Part shown: in pieces, positions 3,890 through 64,000 of the stretch
Numbering within the stretch: position 1 is the first letter of the stretch
How the letters are laid out: every line of letters begins with the position of its first letter
NCBI GenBank assembly: GCA_012797975.1
Contig: JAAZOD010000025.1
Location: 62,001-126,000, forward strand
Direction: 5' to 3'
Length of the DNA stretch: 64,000 nt
From: Pelolinea sp.
GTDB lineage: Bacteria; Chloroflexota; Anaerolineae; Anaerolineales; Anaerolineaceae
Notes under the pieces: model-generated
What the model was told of the DNA's origin: nothing
The model's database searches: none
The model's input: only the letters and a program-made list of their open reading frames with translations
Program-made: the position numbers and the translations under genes

Positions 3890-4594
3890 CGGTTTTTTGG
3901 CTGGCACTCCCACCCGGCGTGGATAGGCAGCGGGGGTGGCTTTCCGTTTTTCAACGATGACCAGATTACGAGTGGCGTCCAGGCCGGGAATGGATATGGG
4001 TTCCAGACGTGTTTCACCACCGCCCAGTATGGCGCAGGCATTTTTTGCCAGTGATATTTCTTCTTTCACGGCTGTGCCTTTTTGGGCTATGACAATCCCG
4101 CCGATTTTCACCAGTGGCAGCAGGTATTCCAGTAGGATGGGAAGGGCCGCCACGGCGCGCGCTACCGCACAATCGAACTGTTCACGGTATAGCGTATCCT
4201 GCCCCAACGCTTCCGCACGATCTACCACTACTTCTGCATTTTTTAATTCGAGCGTTTGCAGGATATGCCTGCAAAAAGCGGCTTTCTTTTCCACCGATTC
4301 TACCAGCACCAGGTGCAGGGTAGGGTCGGCGATTTTCAAGGGAATGCCGGGAAAACCCGCGCCGGTACCGATATCGATCAGGGAATGAACCCGGTATTGC
4401 TGCAGGGTGGGCAGCAAACTGAGCGAATCCATGAAGTGTTTGGTCTCGATCTCCTCCGCAGAGCGAATGGCGGTGAGATTGAATTGCGCATTCCACTCCA
4501 GTAATTGCTCTTGATACACCTGGAATGCCTGCAGTAGGGGCGGGGAGGCGGGTCTTCCGCTGTGTGTTTGGTAGTACTCCGCGAGGGTGGTCAT
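3884..4594 (-). CDS. rsmG: RsmG, 16S rRNA (guanine527-N7)-methyltransferase
   Basis: Class I SAM-dependent methyltransferase (GidB) that methylates G527 of 16S rRNA. Visible: the N-terminal EWNAQFNLTAIRSAEEIETKH segment typical of RsmG, the SAM-binding motif DIGTGAGFPGIPLKI and the later VARAVAALPILLEYLLPLVKIGG region. I place the start at the ATG at 4594 (236 residues) because the family begins there and because a TATAAT box lies only 7 bases upstream; an in-frame ATG at 4654 would put that box inside the gene. Its stop overlaps the end of the convergent STAND gene by 6 bases. The C-terminal tail is basic (RRVGVPAKKPL). Confidence 0.92.
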   Translation of the reverse strand: MTTLAEYYQTHSGRPASPPLLQAFQVYQEQLLEWNAQFNLTAIRSAEEIETKHFMDSLSLLPTLQQYRVHSLIDIGTGAGFPGIPLKIADPTLHLVLVESVEKKAAFCRHILQTLELKNAEVVVDRAEALGQDTLYREQFDCAVARAVAALPILLEYLLPLVKIGGIVIAQKGTAVKEEISLAKNACAILGGGETRLEPISIPGLDATRNLVIVEKRKATPAAYPRRVGVPAKKPL

Positions 4595-5714: not shown

Positions 5715-6290
5715 ATGGAGCTTACCAATATTTTTGAGGGTGAACGCTTGCGGCTGACCGAGGTCGACCCGAAGGCGGATTCCGAAAAGGATTCGCTGTG
5801 GTCACATTCCATCGAATATGCGCGCAACCGGAAATCCAATCCGGTGCGCCCGATTTCTGCGCTGGAATCCAGGAAAAAACTGGAGGAAGAGCTCAAAGAG
5901 GCAGAGGAAGAGGGAAATCGCTTCCATTTTGCCATCCGTTCCAAAGATGAAAAAAAAGAGCTGGTTGGCTTCTTGGATGTAGTCAATATCGAATGGAAGA
6001 ACGGCCAGGGTTTTCTGCAGATCTATTTCGGAAACGAAGCCCTGTGCAGAGAATACCTTGCAGAGAGTGTGCAGTTGGGGTTGACCTATGTGTTTGATGA
6101 ATTAAACCTTTACCACGTTTGTATGGAAATCCCTGCGTACGAAACGGCGATCGCTGCTGTGCTTGAAAAAGCCGGCTTCCAGCACGAAGCTTGCCTGCGG
6201 GAGATCATCTTTCATGAGGGAAAATATTTCGACCGCATCATGGTTGGTCTGCTGGCAGAAGAATGGCGCAGCCAGAAAGGATTGAAATGA
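5715..6290 (+). CDS. GNAT family N-acetyltransferase (RimJ/RimL-like)
   Basis: 191-residue GNAT protein. The central part has the AcCoA-binding beta4-alpha3 layout (FLQIYFGNEALCREYLAESV, then LNLYHVCMEIPAYETAIAAVLEKAGF), which is the RimJ/RimL branch that acetylates N-termini or small amines. The usual Q/RxxGxG/A loop is degenerate here (GNEALC), so acetyl-CoA binding may be altered. I chose the ATG at 5715 because AGAGGAAG precedes it; an ATG six codons upstream lacks a ribosome site. It overlaps the next acetyltransferase gene by 4 bases (ATGA), so both are likely made together. Substrate unknown. Confidence 0.82.
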   Translation: MELTNIFEGERLRLTEVDPKADSEKDSLWSHSIEYARNRKSNPVRPISALESRKKLEEELKEAEEEGNRFHFAIRSKDEKKELVGFLDVVNIEWKNGQGFLQIYFGNEALCREYLAESVQLGLTYVFDELNLYHVCMEIPAYETAIAAVLEKAGFQHEACLREIIFHEGKYFDRIMVGLLAEEWRSQKGLK

Positions 6291-6847
6291 GCGACGTATA
6301 TTTGCAGGGGAAAACTGTAAACCTGCGCGCCACGGACCCGGAAAAGGATGTTCAATGGTTTGCAACCTGGCAGCGGGATGCGTTGTATGATCGCTATATG
6401 GATAGCTTGCCGGCTGTCATGTACAACAAGGACCAGATGAAGGATTGGTATGAAAAACAGATCACCTCGCACTTGAGTTCTTTCATCATTGTGCGCAAAG
6501 CTGATGAGGTTCCCATCGGTTTCATTGAGATCTCTGGTTATGATTGGCACAGCGGGAACGCTTGGCTGGGTATTGGGATAGGGGAGCGAAAGAATTGGGG
6601 AAAAGGATATGGAACGGAAGCCATGAATTTGCTGCTCAAGCTGGTATTTCAGGAATGGAACCTGCATCGAGTGTCTTTGGCAGTGCTGGGATATAATGCG
6701 CGGGCCATCCGTTCGTATGAAAAAGCTGGTTTTAAAACTGAAGGAGCGCTGCGCGGTTTCATCCAACGTGAGGGTCAACGTTGGGATATGTACATGATGG
6801 GCATCCTGCGCTCTGATTGGGAGAAACTGCAAGAAAACAACATCTAA
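6287..6847 (+). CDS. GNAT family N-acetyltransferase (RimJ/RimL-like)
   Basis: 186-residue acetyltransferase. Unlike its upstream neighbour it keeps a full acetyl-CoA loop: IGIGERKNWGKGYGTEA contains the R/QxxGxG signature. It continues with LHRVSLAVLGYNARAIRSYEKAGFKTEGALRG, a classic RimJ/RimL C-terminal half in which the NARAIRSYEKAGF helix closes the active site. The start ATG overlaps the upstream stop (ATGA) and is preceded by AAAGGA. The gene pair probably arose by duplication. The substrate cannot be told from sequence; possibilities are protein N-termini, amines or antibiotics. Confidence 0.87.
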   Translation: MSDVYLQGKTVNLRATDPEKDVQWFATWQRDALYDRYMDSLPAVMYNKDQMKDWYEKQITSHLSSFIIVRKADEVPIGFIEISGYDWHSGNAWLGIGIGERKNWGKGYGTEAMNLLLKLVFQEWNLHRVSLAVLGYNARAIRSYEKAGFKTEGALRGFIQREGQRWDMYMMGILRSDWEKLQENNI

Positions 6848-56649: not shown

Positions 56650-56652
56650 ATG

Positions 56653-57816
56653 ATGAACCAATGGAAAATCACTCCCAGAGATGCGCTCATTTTTCGGGAT
56701 GGGAAACCATTTACCGCAGATGCAGGTGCAAAAGCGAAATCTTTACCTTTTCCCTTCCCTTCTTCTATTGCGGGGGCGGTCAGAACAATGGCAGGGATCG
56801 ATCCTGCCATAGGGGAATTTGACACACAAAAAAGAGAGTCGCTATTAAAAAAGAAAATAAGAGGACCCTTCCTGGCAGAAGAAGCGGATAACGGGAATTT
56901 AGAGTGGCTGGCGCCAGCTCCCGCAGATTGTTTAATGCTTAATGGTGAAAAGAAGGAGCTGGGCAAACGTATCTGGTTAAACCCGATCGACCTGCAGCAA
57001 GGAGAAATCACAGACCTCAAGGATACCAGTCTGATTGGGCCTGCTGCAATCATTGAAGAAAAACCGCATGCAGAACCTCCTCGGTTTTGGAAATGGAGAT
57101 ACTTCAATGATTGGCTGATCAAACCGGGGGATGATGTAGTATCTCTACAAGAGATTGGTTGTTCTGGACCCATGTATGAAAGTCGCATGCATGTGAGCAT
57201 GAATCCCGAAACAGGCACCGCAATTTTTGGAGCTTTATTCCGGACCAGCGGATTAGAATTCATCCATCTCCGCCCGGAACTGGATGAAAAAAAGATGATC
57301 AAGAATGCCAAGGCATTAAGCTTATTGATTGAGACGGATGCCGATCTCAAACCTGGGATCGGATTTTTAGGTGGAGAGCGACGTGTGGTACAGTGGGAAA
57401 AGGCAAAATGCAGTATCCCACATTGCCCTCAGGAAATTCGAGATAGTATTGATTCAAATAAAACTTGTCGTCTGATCTTGCTGACGCCTGCCATTTTCGA
57501 TAAGGGTTTTTTACCGACCTGGCTGCAAAAGGAATTTGCGATTAGTATAACCGGTGTTGTTCTGCCACGCTACCAGGTGACCTCAGGCTGGGATTATGAA
57601 AAAGGGAAACCGAAACCCACACGCCGGTTGGTTCCAGCGGGAAGTGTGTATTATTTACGGTTAGATCCACACCAGAATATTGAGGAATTCATTGAGAAGA
57701 TTTGGCTGGCAAATATCAGCGACACCGAGCAAGATCGGCTGGACGGTTTTGGGTTGGCTGCCCTGGGAAATTGGGATGGAAGAAACCGAACAATGGAAAT
57801 GGAGGAGCATTCATGA
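56653..57816 (+). CDS. cmr3: Type III-B RAMP subunit Cmr3
   Basis: 387-residue Cas5-group protein that binds the 5' handle of crRNA and the Cas10 subunit. Marks: ITPRDALIFRDGKPFTADAGAKAKSLPFPFPSSIAGAVR at the start, GFLGGERRVVQWEK and the end LVPAGSVYYLRLD...DGFGLAALGNW, all family-typical. The start is the second of two adjacent ATGs, 4 bases after the cas10 stop; AGGAGG precedes it. Its stop overlaps cmr1 by 4 bases. Confidence 0.94.
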   Translation: MNQWKITPRDALIFRDGKPFTADAGAKAKSLPFPFPSSIAGAVRTMAGIDPAIGEFDTQKRESLLKKKIRGPFLAEEADNGNLEWLAPAPADCLMLNGEKKELGKRIWLNPIDLQQGEITDLKDTSLIGPAAIIEEKPHAEPPRFWKWRYFNDWLIKPGDDVVSLQEIGCSGPMYESRMHVSMNPETGTAIFGALFRTSGLEFIHLRPELDEKKMIKNAKALSLLIETDADLKPGIGFLGGERRVVQWEKAKCSIPHCPQEIRDSIDSNKTCRLILLTPAIFDKGFLPTWLQKEFAISITGVVLPRYQVTSGWDYEKGKPKPTRRLVPAGSVYYLRLDPHQNIEEFIEKIWLANISDTEQDRLDGFGLAALGNWDGRNRTMEMEEHS

Positions 57817-59021
57817 GAAAAGAACCGGAATTAAACCCCCCTGCCAAGATTGAACCGATTCAGAAAACGATAAAGCAAGCGCGAAAATATGAGCTGATCA
57901 CACCCCTGTATGGGGGTGGTGTAGAGCCTAATAAAGCGGATCCCATCTCAACTGTGCGGGCGACGGAAATTCGCGGGCAGCTGCGCTTTTGGTGGCGAGC
58001 GACCTGCGGAGGAAGATTTGATGGTAATCTGGAAAAGATGCGCGAGCAGGAAGAGAAAATATGGGGCTCTTCTGCAGAAAAAAACAAACCGGGTCCTTCA
58101 CTAATAAATATTTGCGTGATTGAACATAACCCGGGAAATGAAATTAAGCAGATACAGCAAGGAAAGGAAAAGGTTGATATCTGGGACCAGAATTCAAAAT
58201 GGGGGTATGTGTCTTTTCCTCTAAGAGAAGAGGAAGGGAAAGTACGACAAAACGTGAGATTCACGATCGAAATATCCTTTCCAGAAGCATTTCAAGCAGA
58301 TATAGAAACCAGTCTTTGGGCCTGGGAACATTTTGGCGGTATCGGAGCGCGCACAAGACGCGGATTTGGTGCATTAAAATGTGTTAAGGTTGATGCCAAA
58401 ACCATTCAAAAAATAACTAAAACTCAAATGAGAGAAGAGATCCAAGAATGGTTAAGCAAGATCAATGGCAGATGGTTAAATGAAATCCCACATATATCTG
58501 ATAAAACAAAGTATGGAATCATTGAACGAAAAAACTCGATAACTGCATGGGAAGCATTGATCTTTTCTTTAAAAAAATTCAGACAGCAATTAAAAAAAGA
58601 CCATGGAATTGAGATCAGTAATGAATTAGATCGAAATATTGTAAATGAGATTAGCAGCATGATTGAAGATGACGAACAGATTGTTGATAGGTTACCATCT
58701 GCCCAATTTGGGCTCCCTATTATTTATAAGCTAGATGAAGATTCAAAAAAAGGAGAGCCTTCTCAAATTACCCTGAAAGGGAAACATCATGACCGTCTTG
58801 CCAGCCGGCTCATCCTGCGACCGATCGATTGCGTTGATGGAGGGCTGGGATTGGCACTGGTTCTGGAAGGTCCCATGTTTCCCCCCGGAGGTTTGATTTT
58901 GGACAAAGGAAAAAAGGATGAAAATGTGGACGGTGGTTTAGGTGGAACTGAAGCAAATGCTATTCCACCTCTGAAGAGTAAAACCGATGTTCTACAAGCA
59001 TTCTTAAATTATTTGAAGTAA
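57813..59021 (+). CDS. cmr1: Type III-B RAMP subunit Cmr1
   Basis: 402-residue Cas7-type protein capping the 3' side of the crRNA filament. Marks: ELITPLYGGGVEPNKADPISTVRATEIRGQLRFWWRAT, the signature of Cmr1 (TPxxxGG, IRGxLRFWWR), and GGIGARTRRGFGALK, the RAMP glycine-rich loop, at ~residue 175. The C-terminal half is Lys-rich and AT-rich in codon use. ATG overlaps the cmr3 stop (ATGA). Confidence 0.95.
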   Translation: MRKEPELNPPAKIEPIQKTIKQARKYELITPLYGGGVEPNKADPISTVRATEIRGQLRFWWRATCGGRFDGNLEKMREQEEKIWGSSAEKNKPGPSLINICVIEHNPGNEIKQIQQGKEKVDIWDQNSKWGYVSFPLREEEGKVRQNVRFTIEISFPEAFQADIETSLWAWEHFGGIGARTRRGFGALKCVKVDAKTIQKITKTQMREEIQEWLSKINGRWLNEIPHISDKTKYGIIERKNSITAWEALIFSLKKFRQQLKKDHGIEISNELDRNIVNEISSMIEDDEQIVDRLPSAQFGLPIIYKLDEDSKKGEPSQITLKGKHHDRLASRLILRPIDCVDGGLGLALVLEGPMFPPGGLILDKGKKDENVDGGLGGTEANAIPPLKSKTDVLQAFLNYLK

Positions 59022-59036
59022 CCAGGAGGAAATAAG

Positions 59037-59927
59037 ATGGAAGCAAAATTACTTTTCTTACACACGCTGTCTCCCCTGCATACCGGAACAGGGCAGGGGG
59101 TGGGAGTGATCGATCTGCCGATCGCGCGTGAAAAAGCCACGAACATTCCGTATATACCCGGATCATCTTTAAAAGGTGTATTGCGCGATGCTTGCCGGGA
59201 GGATGAAGAAATAAAGAAACAGGTGTTTGGTACAGAAGTGAACAGTGATGAAATGTATGCGGGTGCTGTGAATTTTACCGATCTGCGTCTGATTCTGCTG
59301 CCGGTGCGCAGCTTGAAAGGCGTTTTTGCCTGGGTGACCTCTCCCTTCCTTCTGCGCCGATTGGTGCGAGATGGAGAAGCAGCCATGGATAATTCGCTGC
59401 CCAAAATGATCCCCATTCCGCAATCGGATGAGCGTTGTCTGGTCACAACGCAGCATGAGTGCACTAGACAGACTAAAGAAGTTAGAGAAGTTATTTTGGA
59501 AGATCTTGTATTACAGGCCGATAATTCTAAAGAGGTTGATGCATGGGCGGTTTGGTTCGCAGAAGCGATCTTCCCACAAGACGCTGCCTGGCAAGAAATA
59601 ATGAGGAAACGGCTGTGTGTGATTACCGATGATATCATGAGCTTTCTTATGGAAACCGGAACGGAAGTAAATGCCCGCATTGCGTTGGAACGCGATACGA
59701 AAACTACCAAAGACGGAGCGCTCTGGTATGAAGAATCCTTGCCGGCAGAAACAGTGTTGAGCGGATTGGTGATTGGTACAACGATTAAAGAAAGCAAAGC
59801 GAATCCTAAAATCGTTTTCAACACGGTAAAGAACTGCACTGCAACACCGCTGCAGGTGGGCGGCAGTGCGACAGTAGGGCGAGGCATCTGCCAGTTGAAC
59901 ATGGTCCCTGCGAATTCAGAAGGGTAG
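59037..59927 (+). CDS. cmr4: Type III-B RAMP subunit Cmr4, target RNA nuclease
   Basis: 296-residue Cas7 backbone subunit. D26 in TGTGQGVGVIDLPIARE lies at the same residue number as the catalytic Asp26 of P. furiosus Cmr4, which cuts target RNA every six bases. Other marks: NIPYIPGSSLKGVLRD, FVWVTSPF-like block AWVTSPFLLRR and GGSATVGRGICQLN at the end. The enzyme should be active. AGGAGG ribosome site before the ATG. Confidence 0.96.
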   Translation: MEAKLLFLHTLSPLHTGTGQGVGVIDLPIAREKATNIPYIPGSSLKGVLRDACREDEEIKKQVFGTEVNSDEMYAGAVNFTDLRLILLPVRSLKGVFAWVTSPFLLRRLVRDGEAAMDNSLPKMIPIPQSDERCLVTTQHECTRQTKEVREVILEDLVLQADNSKEVDAWAVWFAEAIFPQDAAWQEIMRKRLCVITDDIMSFLMETGTEVNARIALERDTKTTKDGALWYEESLPAETVLSGLVIGTTIKESKANPKIVFNTVKNCTATPLQVGGSATVGRGICQLNMVPANSEG

Positions 59928-59940
59928 GGAGGAAAAAACC

Positions 59941-60333
59941 ATGAGAACCATTCAGCAGCAATTTGCCTCTGCGGTTTACGATCATATTCTCAGTTATCAA
60001 AAGGATCATTCGGAAACGGATCAGAAAAAATACGGCAGCATAGCCATCAAATTGCCTTTTCTGGTGCAAAAAGCAGGGCTGGCGCAAGCTCTGGCTTTTG
60101 TTAACAGGAAAGCAGAATCCGATTCCGGTGAATCCTATAAAGATCTTCTCGAACATCTATCGCAGATCGTAGTTGAAGAGGGAGAACAATCGCTTTTACA
60201 AGCCAGTATCTCTGCTGATCTGCCGGATTATATTTACCTTACCAAACGTGCGTTATTGGCTCTGGAGTGGTTTAACCGTTTTTCACAATCCATTTTAAAG
60301 GTTAAACAAACCGATGAGGTACAAGGGAGTTAA
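59941..60333 (+). CDS. cmr5: Type III-B small subunit Cmr5
   Basis: 130-residue all-helical protein (Cas11 group) forming the minor filament next to Cmr4. Pattern: QQFASAVYDHILSYQ, KKYGSIAIKLPFLVQKAGLAQALAFV and the end LTKRALLALEWFNRFSQSIL, typical of Cmr5. GGAGG ribosome site, 13 bases after the cmr4 stop. Its stop is 4 bases from the cmr6 ATG. Confidence 0.93.
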   Translation: MRTIQQQFASAVYDHILSYQKDHSETDQKKYGSIAIKLPFLVQKAGLAQALAFVNRKAESDSGESYKDLLEHLSQIVVEEGEQSLLQASISADLPDYIYLTKRALLALEWFNRFSQSILKVKQTDEVQGS

Positions 60334-60337
60334 TAAA

Positions 60338-61384
60338 ATGAATCAAAGTCGAAGATCAGTTCTCCGGGATATGCAACCTGAAGCGACCACCCACGCTGGA
60401 TTATGGTTGGAAAAATATCTTGACCGATTCAACGTACCTGATGAAGAAAAAGAAAGAAGCGTTCTGATCAAGCGGGTGGCTGCTTTTCAAGAAACGGAAC
60501 TCTATGCGAACTTTTTCAAAAGGTGGGAAAATGTTCTCACACAACTTAAAGTGAAACCTGAAAAAGCTACAGTGAAGGGGCGGTTGGCTATCAACCTGGG
60601 GACAGAGAGCGTTCTGGAGACGAACATTGCCCTCCATCACACCTACGGAACGCCCTATATCCCGGGCAGCGCATTAAAAGGGCTGGCAGCTTTTTATGCT
60701 CGCAATTACCTGAAATCGGAGGAGTGGGGAGAAACCCAACCCGCTTACCGTACTCTATTTGGGTATGGTGAGCAAGCCGGATATGTCACTTTTTTCGACG
60801 CGTTATATATTCCCGGAAGTGGTTTTGAAGGGAATGCACTTTGGCCTGATGTCATCACCCCCCACCATCCCGATTATTATGAGGGAAAATTGAATGCTGC
60901 CCCTGCGGATTGGGACAGCCCGACACCGATCAGTTTTCTGACTGCTACCGGAGATTATCTGATCGCATTGGCAGGTCCGGAAGCGTGGGTGGAAGTGGGT
61001 TTAAAAATATTGAAATTGGCATTAGAAGAACTGGGTATCGGCGCGAAAACTTCCAGCGGATATGGGCGCATGGTTCTGGGGGAGGAAATGGGCAAGGAGA
61101 AGACAGTCAAGGAACCTTATGAAATCGCGAAAAATCGCATCCTTTCTGATGAGACTCTCCCCGCCGGGCGCTGTCGTGGAACTGTGAAAGAGATTGGTCA
61201 AAAGGATTCCTTTGGTTTTATTTACCCGGCTAGAGGAGGTGAAAAGGTTTTTGTTCATCGTAATCACTTCATGGAACCGGTGGAAAGGGTCATAAAAGAT
61301 GTGGTGGTTGAATATAATTTAGTAAAAAATGACAAGGGAGAACTACAAGCCAAAGATGTGGTGATCTTGCTGCAACCAGATTGA
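60338..61384 (+). CDS. cmr6: Type III-B RAMP subunit Cmr6 fused to a cold-shock domain
   Basis: 348 residues. Residues 1-250 are Cmr6: ALHHTYGTPYIPGSALKGLAAFYARNYL and the RAMP loop GIGAKTSSGYGRM (233-245). Residues ~278-345 match a cold-shock domain: CRGTVKEIGQKDSFGFIYP with RNP1-like SFGFIYP (291-297), RNP2 VFVHR (304-308), and the end LVKNDKGELQAKDVVIL. Cmr6 binds the crRNA 3' region next to Cmr1. The added OB-fold could grip single-stranded RNA. The two domains share one frame with no gap, so this is a real fusion. Start ATG 60338 with GGGAG upstream. Confidence 0.94.
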   Translation: MNQSRRSVLRDMQPEATTHAGLWLEKYLDRFNVPDEEKERSVLIKRVAAFQETELYANFFKRWENVLTQLKVKPEKATVKGRLAINLGTESVLETNIALHHTYGTPYIPGSALKGLAAFYARNYLKSEEWGETQPAYRTLFGYGEQAGYVTFFDALYIPGSGFEGNALWPDVITPHHPDYYEGKLNAAPADWDSPTPISFLTATGDYLIALAGPEAWVEVGLKILKLALEELGIGAKTSSGYGRMVLGEEMGKEKTVKEPYEIAKNRILSDETLPAGRCRGTVKEIGQKDSFGFIYPARGGEKVFVHRNHFMEPVERVIKDVVVEYNLVKNDKGELQAKDVVILLQPD

Positions 61385-61453
61385 GATGGGCTGACAGCGA
61401 TGCAAAAATGCGTTTTCGGCGGAAAACGTACCGCGAAAGGCAGGAGAAATCAC

Positions 61454-61843
61454 ATGATCCTTTTGAATTTTGCGCATCCTATAACGGAACATCAGCGAAA
61501 AGAAGTTGAACTGCTTACGCAGCAGAACTTGGAGCGCGTGATGGATATCCAGGTGCAGTTGGATAATGCATTGCCTTATGCCGAACAGATATACCGGTTA
61601 GTGAGTGATATTCCTCTGGATGCCCAGCAGTGGCAAACGGAAGCCATCTTGATCAATCCGCCTGCCTATAATTATGCAGCGCTCACGTTATTTGCCGAGT
61701 TACATGGAAAGATGGGGTATTTTCCCAGTATCATTCGCATCAGACCGGCGGAAGAGAGCGTTCCCACGCGTTTTGAGGTATGCGAGATCATTAATCTGCA
61801 GGTGGTAAGAGATGCCGCCAGAGAAACGCGGAAATCTATTTAA
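61454..61843 (+). CDS. csx15: Csx15-like CRISPR accessory protein
   Basis: 129-residue protein beginning MILLNFAHPITEHQRKEVELL, the opening that I know from Csx15-type proteins found in type III loci. It continues with LPYAEQIYRLVSDIPLDAQQWQTEAILINPPAYNYAALTLFAELHGKMGYFPSIIRI. It has a Rossmann-like alternation with no catalytic motif that I can name. Accessory proteins of this sort are thought to bind cyclic oligoadenylate. Start ATG at 61454 has GGAG 8 bases upstream; an ATG at 61400 lacks a ribosome site. Family naming from memory, so moderate confidence. Confidence 0.75.
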   Translation: MILLNFAHPITEHQRKEVELLTQQNLERVMDIQVQLDNALPYAEQIYRLVSDIPLDAQQWQTEAILINPPAYNYAALTLFAELHGKMGYFPSIIRIRPAEESVPTRFEVCEIINLQVVRDAARETRKSI

Positions 61844-61864
61844 GGATGAATGGAGGAAAAGATA

Positions 61865-62263
61865 ATGAATTGGTTGAACGGAATAATAAATTTTGTTCTA
61901 AATACATTAATTGAAGAGACTTTGGGAGTGTTAATTGGTATTTTCCTGTTTGATAGAATTAAAAATGCATGGATTGAAAGAAAATATGGAGGATGGCATG
62001 TGATCATTAGAAAAAAAGGGGAAGAGAAAGTTGATCGACCAGTATCGGCAAAAAAAGCAAAAGACATTCTGGAAGAACCGGCAGATAAGGTTGTTTTTCT
62101 GAAGGGTGTTGCCAGCCCATATGGGACCATAAATTGTGATCTCCTGGATGTAGGAACTAAAAAAGAAGTTTTTGTGCAAGATGAAGAGAATAAAAAATTT
62201 ATCGTCGATTTGGATAAACAAGAAGAGGATAAAGATAATAATTCAAACTTGGGTGTTCGATAA
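61865..62263 (+). CDS. Unknown one-TM protein in the CRISPR operon
   Basis: 132-residue protein that I do not recognise. Residues ~5-32 form one hydrophobic helix (GIINFVLNTLIEETLGVLIG) that may anchor it, followed by a ~95-residue hydrophilic domain rich in Lys/Asp (KYGGWHVIIRKKGEEKV, VVFLKGVASPYGTINCDLLDVG) with a strand-like pattern. The gene lies between a Csx15-like gene and cas6, with GGAGG before the ATG at 61865. By position it could be a membrane effector or partner of cyclic-oligoadenylate signalling; no CARF or SAVED motif is visible. AT-rich codon use. Confidence 0.72.
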   Translation: MNWLNGIINFVLNTLIEETLGVLIGIFLFDRIKNAWIERKYGGWHVIIRKKGEEKVDRPVSAKKAKDILEEPADKVVFLKGVASPYGTINCDLLDVGTKKEVFVQDEENKKFIVDLDKQEEDKDNNSNLGVR

Positions 62264-62269
62264 ATACTC

Positions 62270-63079
62270 ATGCTGCTTTCTATTGTAATTCAATGTTCCG
62301 CGAAAGAAACTTGCTCCCTGCGCAGCGCCAGCGGGCGAGGATTGCACGGCTTCTGGTTCAAGCAGCTACATGCGATCGACGCACCGCTTGCTGAAAGACT
62401 GCACGATGATGTGCAGCGTCAACCTTTTACCCTTTCCCCGCTGATGGATCTGCCGTTGCCATATAAAAATTCCACCGTGATCCAGCGCGGGCAAAAAACC
62501 TGGTTTCGGGTATGTTCTCTGACCGAAGAACTCTCCACTTTTTTACTGGAAAAATGGGTTAACTCATTACCGGATGAGATTAATATTGCGGATACAAACT
62601 GGCGGGTCGAGGGAGTTGCTTTTTCGCCCGATCAACATGCCTGGGCGAGAACCAGCAGCTACAGTGATCTATTGAAAGTTGCATACGATCTGAGCGATCT
62701 ATATCCTGTTTGGCATTTTCATTTTGCCACCCCGGTGACCTTCCACCGCTCAGTCGGGCATTTTCCCTTCCCGCTGCCGGATGCGCTGGTGAAATCCTGG
62801 CTGCAGCGCTGGCAGCGCTTTTCCTCTATACAAAAAAACCTGGAATTCTCAGAAGAAGCAAAAACGGGAATAGCTATCAATGCCTACGAATTGAAAACAG
62901 TCCCCTTCAGTTATGGAAGTAGAACTCTGATCGGAGCGGTTGGAGAGTTTTCATTGCGTGCCTTGCATCTTTCACCGGAAGAAAAGAGTATCTTTCATAC
63001 GCTGGCGCATTACAGTTTTTATTGCGGTAGCGGCTCGAAAACTACCCAGGGCATGGGGCAAACTAAGGTAGAAATATAG
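62270..63079 (+). CDS. cas6: Cas6 CRISPR RNA endoribonuclease
   Basis: 269-residue RAMP protein that processes the CRISPR transcript into crRNAs. The C-terminal glycine-rich loop YCGSGSKTTQGMGQ at ~residue 250-263 is diagnostic for Cas6, and VWHFHFATPVTFHRSVGHFPFPLPDALVKSWLQRW is the usual second-half block. Candidate catalytic histidines lie in the N-terminal half (HGFWFKQLHAID). Starts 6 bases after the TM protein stop. It serves this III-B system if the array is next door. Confidence 0.92.
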   Translation: MLLSIVIQCSAKETCSLRSASGRGLHGFWFKQLHAIDAPLAERLHDDVQRQPFTLSPLMDLPLPYKNSTVIQRGQKTWFRVCSLTEELSTFLLEKWVNSLPDEINIADTNWRVEGVAFSPDQHAWARTSSYSDLLKVAYDLSDLYPVWHFHFATPVTFHRSVGHFPFPLPDALVKSWLQRWQRFSSIQKNLEFSEEAKTGIAINAYELKTVPFSYGSRTLIGAVGEFSLRALHLSPEEKSIFHTLAHYSFYCGSGSKTTQGMGQTKVEI

Positions 63080-63098: not shown

Positions 63099-64000
63099 AT
63101 GTCAACTTTGCTGCAAAAAGTGTTGGACTTCGATAATCTATCCCAGGCATGGGAAAAGGTAGGTGAAAATGATGGTATCCCAGGTGTGGATCATATTTCT
63201 ACATCTGTTTGGGCAAGAACATGGGAGGACCGTTTGATCAAGTTAGCTGACTCTGTTCGAAACAATACCTATGAACCTAGCCCCCTAAAAACCATTCACA
63301 TTAAAAAACAAAATCGAAGAAAATATCGCAAATTAAGAATACCTGTTATTAGTGATAGGATTTTGCATAGGGCTGTGTTACAAGTTTTATATCCTATCTA
63401 TGAACCTCAATTTCTGAATTGCAGTTTTGGATATCGACCGGGGAGAGGTCTGGACGATGCAGTGGAGAGTATTTTGGTCATTCGAACGAATGGGAATAGG
63501 TATGTATTAGATGCTGATATTGATGATTTTTTTAATCAGATTGATCAAACGATTTTACTGGAATTTTTAGAAGAGGATCTTTCTGACCATTCGTTGATCC
63601 AATTAATTCAACGCTGGTTGAAAATGACACGAACCTCTAAAGAGAAAGAGATCGGAATAGCGATGGGGTCTCCTTTGTCTCCCCTGTTTGCAAATGTCTT
63701 TTTACACCGTCTGGATAAAGCGGTAGCCTCAATGCATTTCCCGATGGTTCGATATGCGGATGATTTTCTGGTTTTTTCTCAATCGGAGGAAGAAATTCGT
63801 ACAGCATATTACCTGGTTGAAAAAAAGTTAGATGAACTCAAGCTACGCTATAAATCAATAAAGACACAAATAACTACATTTGAAGAAGGATTCGATTTTA
63901 TTGGTGTGCATTTTGAAGAGGATACTTATGAATATATCTGGCAAAATAAACGAGTAGAGGTTTCGGGAAACGAGATTGATGCCTTGTTCGGATTCTATGG
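63099..64000 (+). CDS. Group II intron-like reverse transcriptase, open at window edge; likely RT-Cas1
   Basis: 300 codons without a stop, cut by the window end. Visible RT motifs: DGIPGVDHIS (domain 0/1), LRIPVISDRILHRAVLQVLYPIYEPQF, SFGYRPGRGLDDAVE, VLDADIDDFFNQID (catalytic Asp), AMGSPLSPLFANVFLHRLD, and VRYADDFLVFS with Y219-A-D-D222, then FDFIGVHFEE. No maturase X or HNH zone has appeared by base 64000. Directly after cas6 in a type III operon, such an RT is nearly always fused to Cas1 and lets the cell take spacers from RNA. The Cas1 domain is not seen, so this is inference. Confidence 0.88.
   Translation, partial: MSTLLQKVLDFDNLSQAWEKVGENDGIPGVDHISTSVWARTWEDRLIKLADSVRNNTYEPSPLKTIHIKKQNRRKYRKLRIPVISDRILHRAVLQVLYPIYEPQFLNCSFGYRPGRGLDDAVESILVIRTNGNRYVLDADIDDFFNQIDQTILLEFLEEDLSDHSLIQLIQRWLKMTRTSKEKEIGIAMGSPLSPLFANVFLHRLDKAVASMHFPMVRYADDFLVFSQSEEEIRTAYYLVEKKLDELKLRYKSIKTQITTFEEGFDFIGVHFEEDTYEYIWQNKRVEVSGNEIDALFGFY

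Follow-up and report, generated by a model that had tools for sequence, protein, structure and literature searches.

The locus described here raises the question of whether a reverse transcriptase (RT) encoded within a CRISPR operon is joined to Cas1 or stands alone, and of what it contributes to the CRISPR system. It lies at the end of a 64,000-nt stretch of DNA from Pelolinea sp. (Chloroflexota; Anaerolineae), here called the window, which comprises positions 62001-126000 of contig JAAZOD010000025.1 (C7) in assembly GCA_012797975.1; as the contig runs to 128400, the 3′ continuation of the window could be read. A first-pass annotation of the window had predicted an RT fused to Cas1, taking up spacers from RNA in a type III-B operon. 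The RT-bearing adaptation module in a III-B operon was confirmed and the fusion was not: we find a separate RT gene in a module of the order cas6-RT-cas1-cas2-array, wherein the RT probably works in trans with Cas1-Cas2. It very likely helps to write spacers into the CRISPR memory, and by analogy with known systems RNA is possibly the source of those spacers.

The RT gene starts with an ATG located 19 nt past the stop codon of cas6 and, in line with the annotation, directly follows cas6 as a gene of its own that is still open at the window edge (position 64000), with its stop codon ending 13 nt further on. The encoded protein has a clear RT palm, as Pfam RVT_1 matches residues 68-272 far beyond chance (3.1e-32, 112.4 bits, cut-off 29.6) and the YADD motif is found at residues 219-222, as had been read in the first pass; the protein ends shortly past the region matched by RVT_1. 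This was the sole RVT_1 match in the genome (assembly of 35 contigs, 98.49% complete). Only 3 nt past the RT stop, cas1 begins with a new ATG in its own reading frame, and its product has E157, H222 and D234, which we take to be the catalytic residues. Beyond cas2 and 222 nt of leader-like sequence follows an array with at least 10 complete 37-nt repeats, all identical, this count being a lower bound because the contig ends inside an eleventh. One end of contig C14 carries the same repeat, in copies that become more degenerate away from that end, and probably represents the distal end of the C7 array, to which we would join it. The adaptation genes and array that had been anticipated beyond the window edge are thus directly downstream, with Cas1 outside of the RT polypeptide. 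Two outcomes had been named as speaking against the annotation, namely an open reading frame (ORF) closing shortly past the RT and lacking Cas1, or continuing into a maturase X/HNH domain. The ORF does end, at 64013, yet Cas1 is the next gene, and Pfam and NCBIfam models find neither a maturase/X nor an HNH domain in the RT.

Judged by its sequence, this protein is a CRISPR-associated RT (CART) of the stand-alone, group-II-like kind and has no thumb; it adjoins cas1 in a CRISPR locus and lacks a maturase/X domain, an endonuclease domain and intron RNA. The NCBIfam model group_II_RT_mat scores 255.5 bits against it, below the cut-off of 300, with an alignment covering only residues 12-293 and profile positions 2-288 of 353. 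The closest solved folds to a structure model of the RT are group II intron RTs (6ar3, TM 0.75), with the CRISPR structures 7kft/7kfu only at rank 47 (TM 0.50). That model, built from the 300 in-window residues with a 4-row alignment, has a mean pLDDT of 68, with 31-36 in the last four blocks, and suffices for the predicted fold, not for the C-terminal tail.

Related loci have the same arrangement. Using a profile of seven RTs (A1) over 396 genomes of the class to which the window belongs, we obtained matches at 67 places in 61 genomes. We examined 62 loci, these being 61 of the 67 places together with L019 (left out were G248, G318:C16, G427, G489, G639 and G740). Cas1 was visible in 50 of the 62, and in all 50 it was encoded downstream of the RT, on the same strand and as a separate gene. 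The remaining 12 comprise L087, L094, L097, L107, L113 and L116, in which the contig breaks off no more than ~740 nt from the end of the RT, and L132-L137, which are low-scoring RTs (of the five placed on a tree, three group with the RTs of group II introns). As a control for the calling of fusions, plasmid-derived fused references were called as fused in four cases out of four (L138, L141, L148, L149). A single-protein RT search matched 25 of 400 genomes of the phylum, and Cas1, seen in five of these loci within ≤1.5 kb on each side (L022, which is the window itself, L023, L024, L043 and L045), was again separate in each, including L043 and L045 from outside the class. The nearest named relatives of the RT, from an Ardenticatenia bacterium (L019, 56%), an Anaerolineales (L020, 53%) and a Chloroflexi bacterium (L021, 52%), all keep cas6-RT-cas1-cas2. 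In L021, a 209-aa ORF (6166-6795) is found between the RT and cas1; its start appears to resemble a REP-associated (RAYT-like) transposase.

In a second, careful RT tree, 55 Chloroflexota CRISPR RTs fell on one side of a branch with support that was not strong (82/95), a count that excludes L097, which was labelled apart, and that was obtained with the fused L148 removed. Within it, the window RT and L019 are sisters (100/94) in a clade of 25 rows (clade A, 90/96), and the remaining 30 Chloroflexota RTs (group B) do not form a single clade. Using 15 clade-A loci having RT, Cas1 and Cas6, we found that RT distances track those of Cas1 more than those of Cas6. The RT-Cas1 correlation was 0.78, and 0.59 (p 0.0002) with Cas6 partialled out, to be compared with 0.18 (p 0.055) for RT-Cas6 with Cas1 partialled out; Cas1-Cas6 gave 0.48 (p 0.0002) with RT partialled out, so that Cas1 follows Cas6 too. 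A tail of ~38 aa starting at an F/Y-L-G motif ('...KRIxV...LFxxYxPxY') is conserved in 23 of the 25 clade-A RTs, with the exceptions of L116, which is cut by the contig, and L123, which differs, and 24 of the 30 group-B RTs end ≤20 aa past that motif. We infer that the RT contacts Cas1-Cas2, with the clade-specific tail as the contact. In the proposed mechanism, the RT would prime or extend DNA on captured fragments of RNA (or single-stranded DNA), Cas1-Cas2 would insert the product at the leader-proximal repeat, beside cas2, Cas6 would cleave the transcribed array, and the Cmr complex, which includes a GGDD Cas10, would turn the CRISPR RNAs on transcripts. Priming and integration have been demonstrated for other CARTs (PMC10415136).

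The RT furthermore looks removable from its Cas1 lineage. A Cas1 profile search matched 135 of the 396 genomes, with 21 genomes scoring 473-570 bits and the next at 370, and an RT stands in front of cas1 in 20 of those 21. In G409 (L181, G409:C7:53000-67000), cas6 and cas1 are separated by 52 nt, counted from stop to ATG; no RT ORF was found in the 14 kb read, and this genome is also not among the RT-bearing genomes of the RT profile search. Since the Cas1 of L181 sits inside clade A of the Cas1 tree (97/93), a loss of the RT is suggested. That tree, from which L020, L021 and L118 (cut at contig end) were dropped and in which, according to a program warning, two long rows of fused proteins join at the outgroup, recovered clade A with 22 rows (100/100). 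Of its 20 RT-less rows (19 from the top of the Cas1 profile list, not all consecutive, and G409), 17 form one clade, lineage C, which adjoins the RT-bearing group-B Cas1s (28 rows, 100/96), and L197 and L200 are placed elsewhere; genomes skipped in this set include G652, G560, G555 and G548, with G560 having an RT. Given that A and B go together in the RT tree, whereas in the Cas1 tree it is RT-less lineage C that stands beside B, the RT may have been lost in lineage C, or moved, or been gained twice. Because the sibling G409 has the same Cas1 lineage and no RT at the locus, we tentatively raise a further idea, possible although doubtful, in which the RT of this Chloroflexota clade would act as a plug-in subunit, docking on Cas1-Cas2 via its clade-specific tail and converting RNA to spacers, and its gain or loss would leave the integrase working.

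Some observations weigh against the proposed mechanism or limit what the trees show. In a first, quick RT tree, which left out L020 and L021 (same contigs as L104 and L105) and the partial L137, the fused L148, on a long branch, was placed among the Chloroflexota RTs at a fork left open (83), with L097 outside of them, so that the unity of the Chloroflexota RTs is in a strict sense not proven. The RT-less L181 keeps two arrays, of 15 and 12 repeats, and the RT is thus not needed for array upkeep. An open-frame strand test of 245 spacers from clade-A RT loci gave 77 versus 75, with no excess on either strand, and a pyrimidine lean was seen alike in clade-A and group-B spacers and in those of RT-less lineage C, with L181 (25 spacers) leaning the opposite way. 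Protospacer searches, made with the spacers on C7, gave no match in phages or plasmids; exact 20-24 nt cores, tried for 8 of the 10 complete spacers of C7, gave none in viral contigs, and self-targets were not found beyond the C7 array and its C14 end. Since these spacer searches and strand tests yielded no RT-specific signature, an RNA origin of the spacers is put forward by analogy with CARTs (PMC10415136, PMC9048733, PMC5513706).

Spacer lengths bear on the same point. Those in the window array are 37-59 nt long (mean 45.0, 9 spacers). Among hand-picked loci with ≥5 spacers, with arrays anywhere in the fetched stretch assigned to the locus, the standard deviation per locus was 2.1-6.9 in clade A (10 loci), 0.8-2.1 in RT-bearing group B (6 loci) and 1.0-2.4 in RT-less lineage C (7 loci), with p 0.0005 for clade A versus group B and p 0.0012 versus lineage C. 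In the RT-less sibling L181, however, it was 3.7, and as variable spacers thereby occur without the RT, spacer length tracks the Cas1 lineage and not the RT; long variable spacers were consequently rejected as an RT signature or as evidence of RNA capture. Arrays illustrating this variance by Cas1 lineage include those of L002, L108, L114, L092 and L124.

The RT could then serve Cas1-Cas2 mainly on DNA, in fill-in or conversion of single-stranded prespacers, with RNA rarely or never as the source. The spacers without an RNA signature and the arrays kept by L181 are what this alternative would lead one to expect, and CARTs prime on DNA too (PMC10415136), but we hold it to be unlikely, as acquisition from RNA in the systems tested depends on the RT, and mutants of the active site no longer show it (PMC9048733, PMC10415136). 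Returning to an RT working in trans with Cas1-Cas2, one may also ask whether this RT is a decayed or idle passenger, for which the lack of an RT beside the same Cas1 lineage in L181 could be cited. Among the 55 RTs, the active-site motif is YADD in 50, FADD in 4 and YADN in one (L095), so that Y/FADD is intact in 54. The RT of L095 (G423:C122) has probably lost its active site, judging from YADN in place of YADD, and still adjoins cas1; this could likewise be cited for a passenger. The RT is under purifying selection, with ratios of nonsynonymous to synonymous rates (dN/dS) of 0.11-0.30 in 10 of 10 pairs (NG86, stop-to-stop frames), values that are rough as dS exceeds 1 in 4 of the pairs. Given this selection and the near-complete conservation of the motif, a passenger is very unlikely.

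Still less probable is an independent defence RT (DRT-like) that happens to share the locus: the UG/DRT models of PADLOC do match, with 129.7 bits at best, but the generic RT model (286 bits) and the RT-Cas1 model (184 bits) score higher, and the RT covaries with Cas1. An RT-Cas1 fusion, as first annotated, has next to no chance of being correct, for although the two halves of the PADLOC RT-Cas1 model PDLC02063 match the RT (first half, 1.1e-54) and Cas1 (second half, 1.2e-43), the two ORFs with a stop codon and a new ATG between them refute it at the level of sequence, the genes are separate in every Chloroflexota locus where both were seen, and nothing short of programmed readthrough could uphold it. 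The chance arrival in the operon of a group II intron, or of a remnant of one, was rejected as hardly credible in spite of the intron-like fold and the sub-threshold group_II_RT_mat score, because that match is partial, no maturase domain was found, no Rfam family reached its gathering score in six RT loci scanned for intron RNA, and the RT precedes cas1 in 50 loci.

With regard to the remainder of the operon, its genes have the order cas10/cmr2, cmr3, cmr1, cmr4, cmr5, cmr6, csx15, an ORF of 137 aa, cas6, RT, cas1 and cas2, before the array, with spacings of 0-19 nt or overlaps. The Pfam and NCBIfam matches for cas10/cmr2 together with cmr1, 3, 4, 5 and 6 bear out the type III-B setting given in the first-pass annotation. 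As GGDD is present in Cas10 and an HD dipeptide is found nowhere in its 607-aa sequence, it is predicted to have a probably active cyclase, signalling by cyclic oligoadenylate, and no HD nuclease. The cmr1 frame, when counted from the first TTG, overlaps cmr3 by 115 nt, and the actual start is probably further downstream.

Table 1. Features of the type III-B CRISPR locus, given in window coordinates (values above 64000 continue beyond the window edge on contig C7).
Feature	Coordinates	Strand	Evidence or remark
cas10/cmr2, 607 aa	54826..56649	+	Pfam / NCBIfam; GGDD at residue 395
cmr3	56650..57816	+	PF09700, 1.6e-70
cmr1	57702..59021	+	TIGR01894; frame counted from first TTG
cmr4	59037..59927	+	TIGR02580, 5.8e-70
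cmr5	59941..60333	+	PF09701
cmr6 with C-terminal cold-shock domain	60314..61384	+	Pfam / NCBIfam
csx15 (cA4-binding family; ring nuclease or sponge)	61400..61843	+	NF040560, 6.7e-46
137-aa protein, one hydrophobic helix and small beta domain	61850..62263	+	No family match; weak structure model
cas6	62270..63079	+	Pfam and NCBIfam
Stand-alone CRISPR-associated RT, 304 aa	63099..64000 in window, stop ends 64013	+	RVT_1, YADD
cas1, 332 aa	64017..65015	+	TIGR00287, 286 bits
cas2	65017..65346		1 nt past cas1
CRISPR array	65569 to contig end, inside 11th repeat		10 complete repeats

Some further features of the locus may be mentioned. The cold-shock domain of Cmr6 (PF00313, 4.7e-09) covers residues 288-350, and the Cmr6 of L021 aligns to that of the window up to residue 349; none of the papers searched mentions Cmr6 together with a cold-shock domain. 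Csx15 proteins bind cyclic tetra-adenylate (cA4), which some of them slowly break down (PMC13148439), and an earlier assay of one Csx15 saw no cA4 cleavage (PMC12409355). The 137-aa protein had no family match in Pfam, NCBIfam or PADLOC scans, and its structure model is weak (pTM 0.48). Homologues were found in 11 of the 396 genomes, one being a piece of 30 aa only, with relatives at L019 500-958, L021 3333-3713 and L203-L210; in 8 of these 11 loci the fetched stretch includes csx15, and in 10 it includes cas6 or csx15. We consider this protein a candidate membrane effector that would be activated by cA4 and act as a partner of Csx15. Inverted copies of the motif GGCGAGCG extend from the end of cas2 into the leader (L002 4313-4474, where L002 positions equal window positions minus 60999), with tool-reported arms at L002 4314-4328 and 4350-4364 and a second pair seen by eye near 4428 and 4466; these are possibly leader elements. 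The genome also has a second, distant Cas1 on contig C3 (7785-8453), with a best piece of 37.9 bits.

Among known systems, the closest is RT-CRISPR clade 9 of Toro et al. 2017 (PMC5541045), built on 3 records and sharing with the window locus a Chloroflexi host, an RT separate from Cas1 and a group-II-like RT. It differs in that the effector of clade 9 was unknown and no complete operon was at hand in 2017, whereas the window locus spans cas10 through the first ten repeats. The window RT is likely a clade 9 member, an assignment made by host and gene separateness. Clades 9 and 13 hold RTs unfused to Cas1 (Toro 2018), and adjacent genes have been proposed as the first state (Silas 2017). In the type III system of Marinomonas mediterranea (PMC10415136), adaptation likewise involves RT, Cas1 and Cas2, with Cas6, RT and Cas1 in one protein instead of in three genes of the same order, and in that of Vibrio vulnificus the RT and Cas1 are one protein instead of separate. 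The Cas6-RT-Cas1-Cas2 structure 7kft/7kfu (PMC8102632) has an RT of fingers and palm without thumb/X, as does the window RT, but in a fused form. Stand-alone RTs directly before cas1-cas2 are also found in the cyanobacteria Microcystis (L049), Nostoc N6 (L139) and Gloeothece citriformis (L140), but in both the RT tree and the Cas1 tree these group apart, near the fused Pseudanabaena RT-Cas1. Besides Toro 2017, we found no such operon in the accessible literature on CRISPR RTs in Chloroflexi, Chloroflexota or Anaerolineae, and clade 9 may have been treated further since; the accessible parts of PMC12669027, PMC9755687, PMC8867640 and PMC8934634 do not describe it.

The arrangement is therefore already known in kind, and what is new is a near-complete operon with dozens of relatives, supplied for a probable published clade that was without one in 2017. 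The experiments on RNA-derived spacers that we found used RTs fused to Cas1, Cas6 or CAPP. Fused RTs cannot simply be taken away, and a family with separate genes and an RT-less sibling thus allows a plain question of gene removal. The RT-bearing loci together with G409 hence constitute a natural system with and without RT, which is the main value of the locus, and should the RT be a plug-in subunit, the pair of RT-bearing loci and G409 would be a natural comparison for RNA memory.
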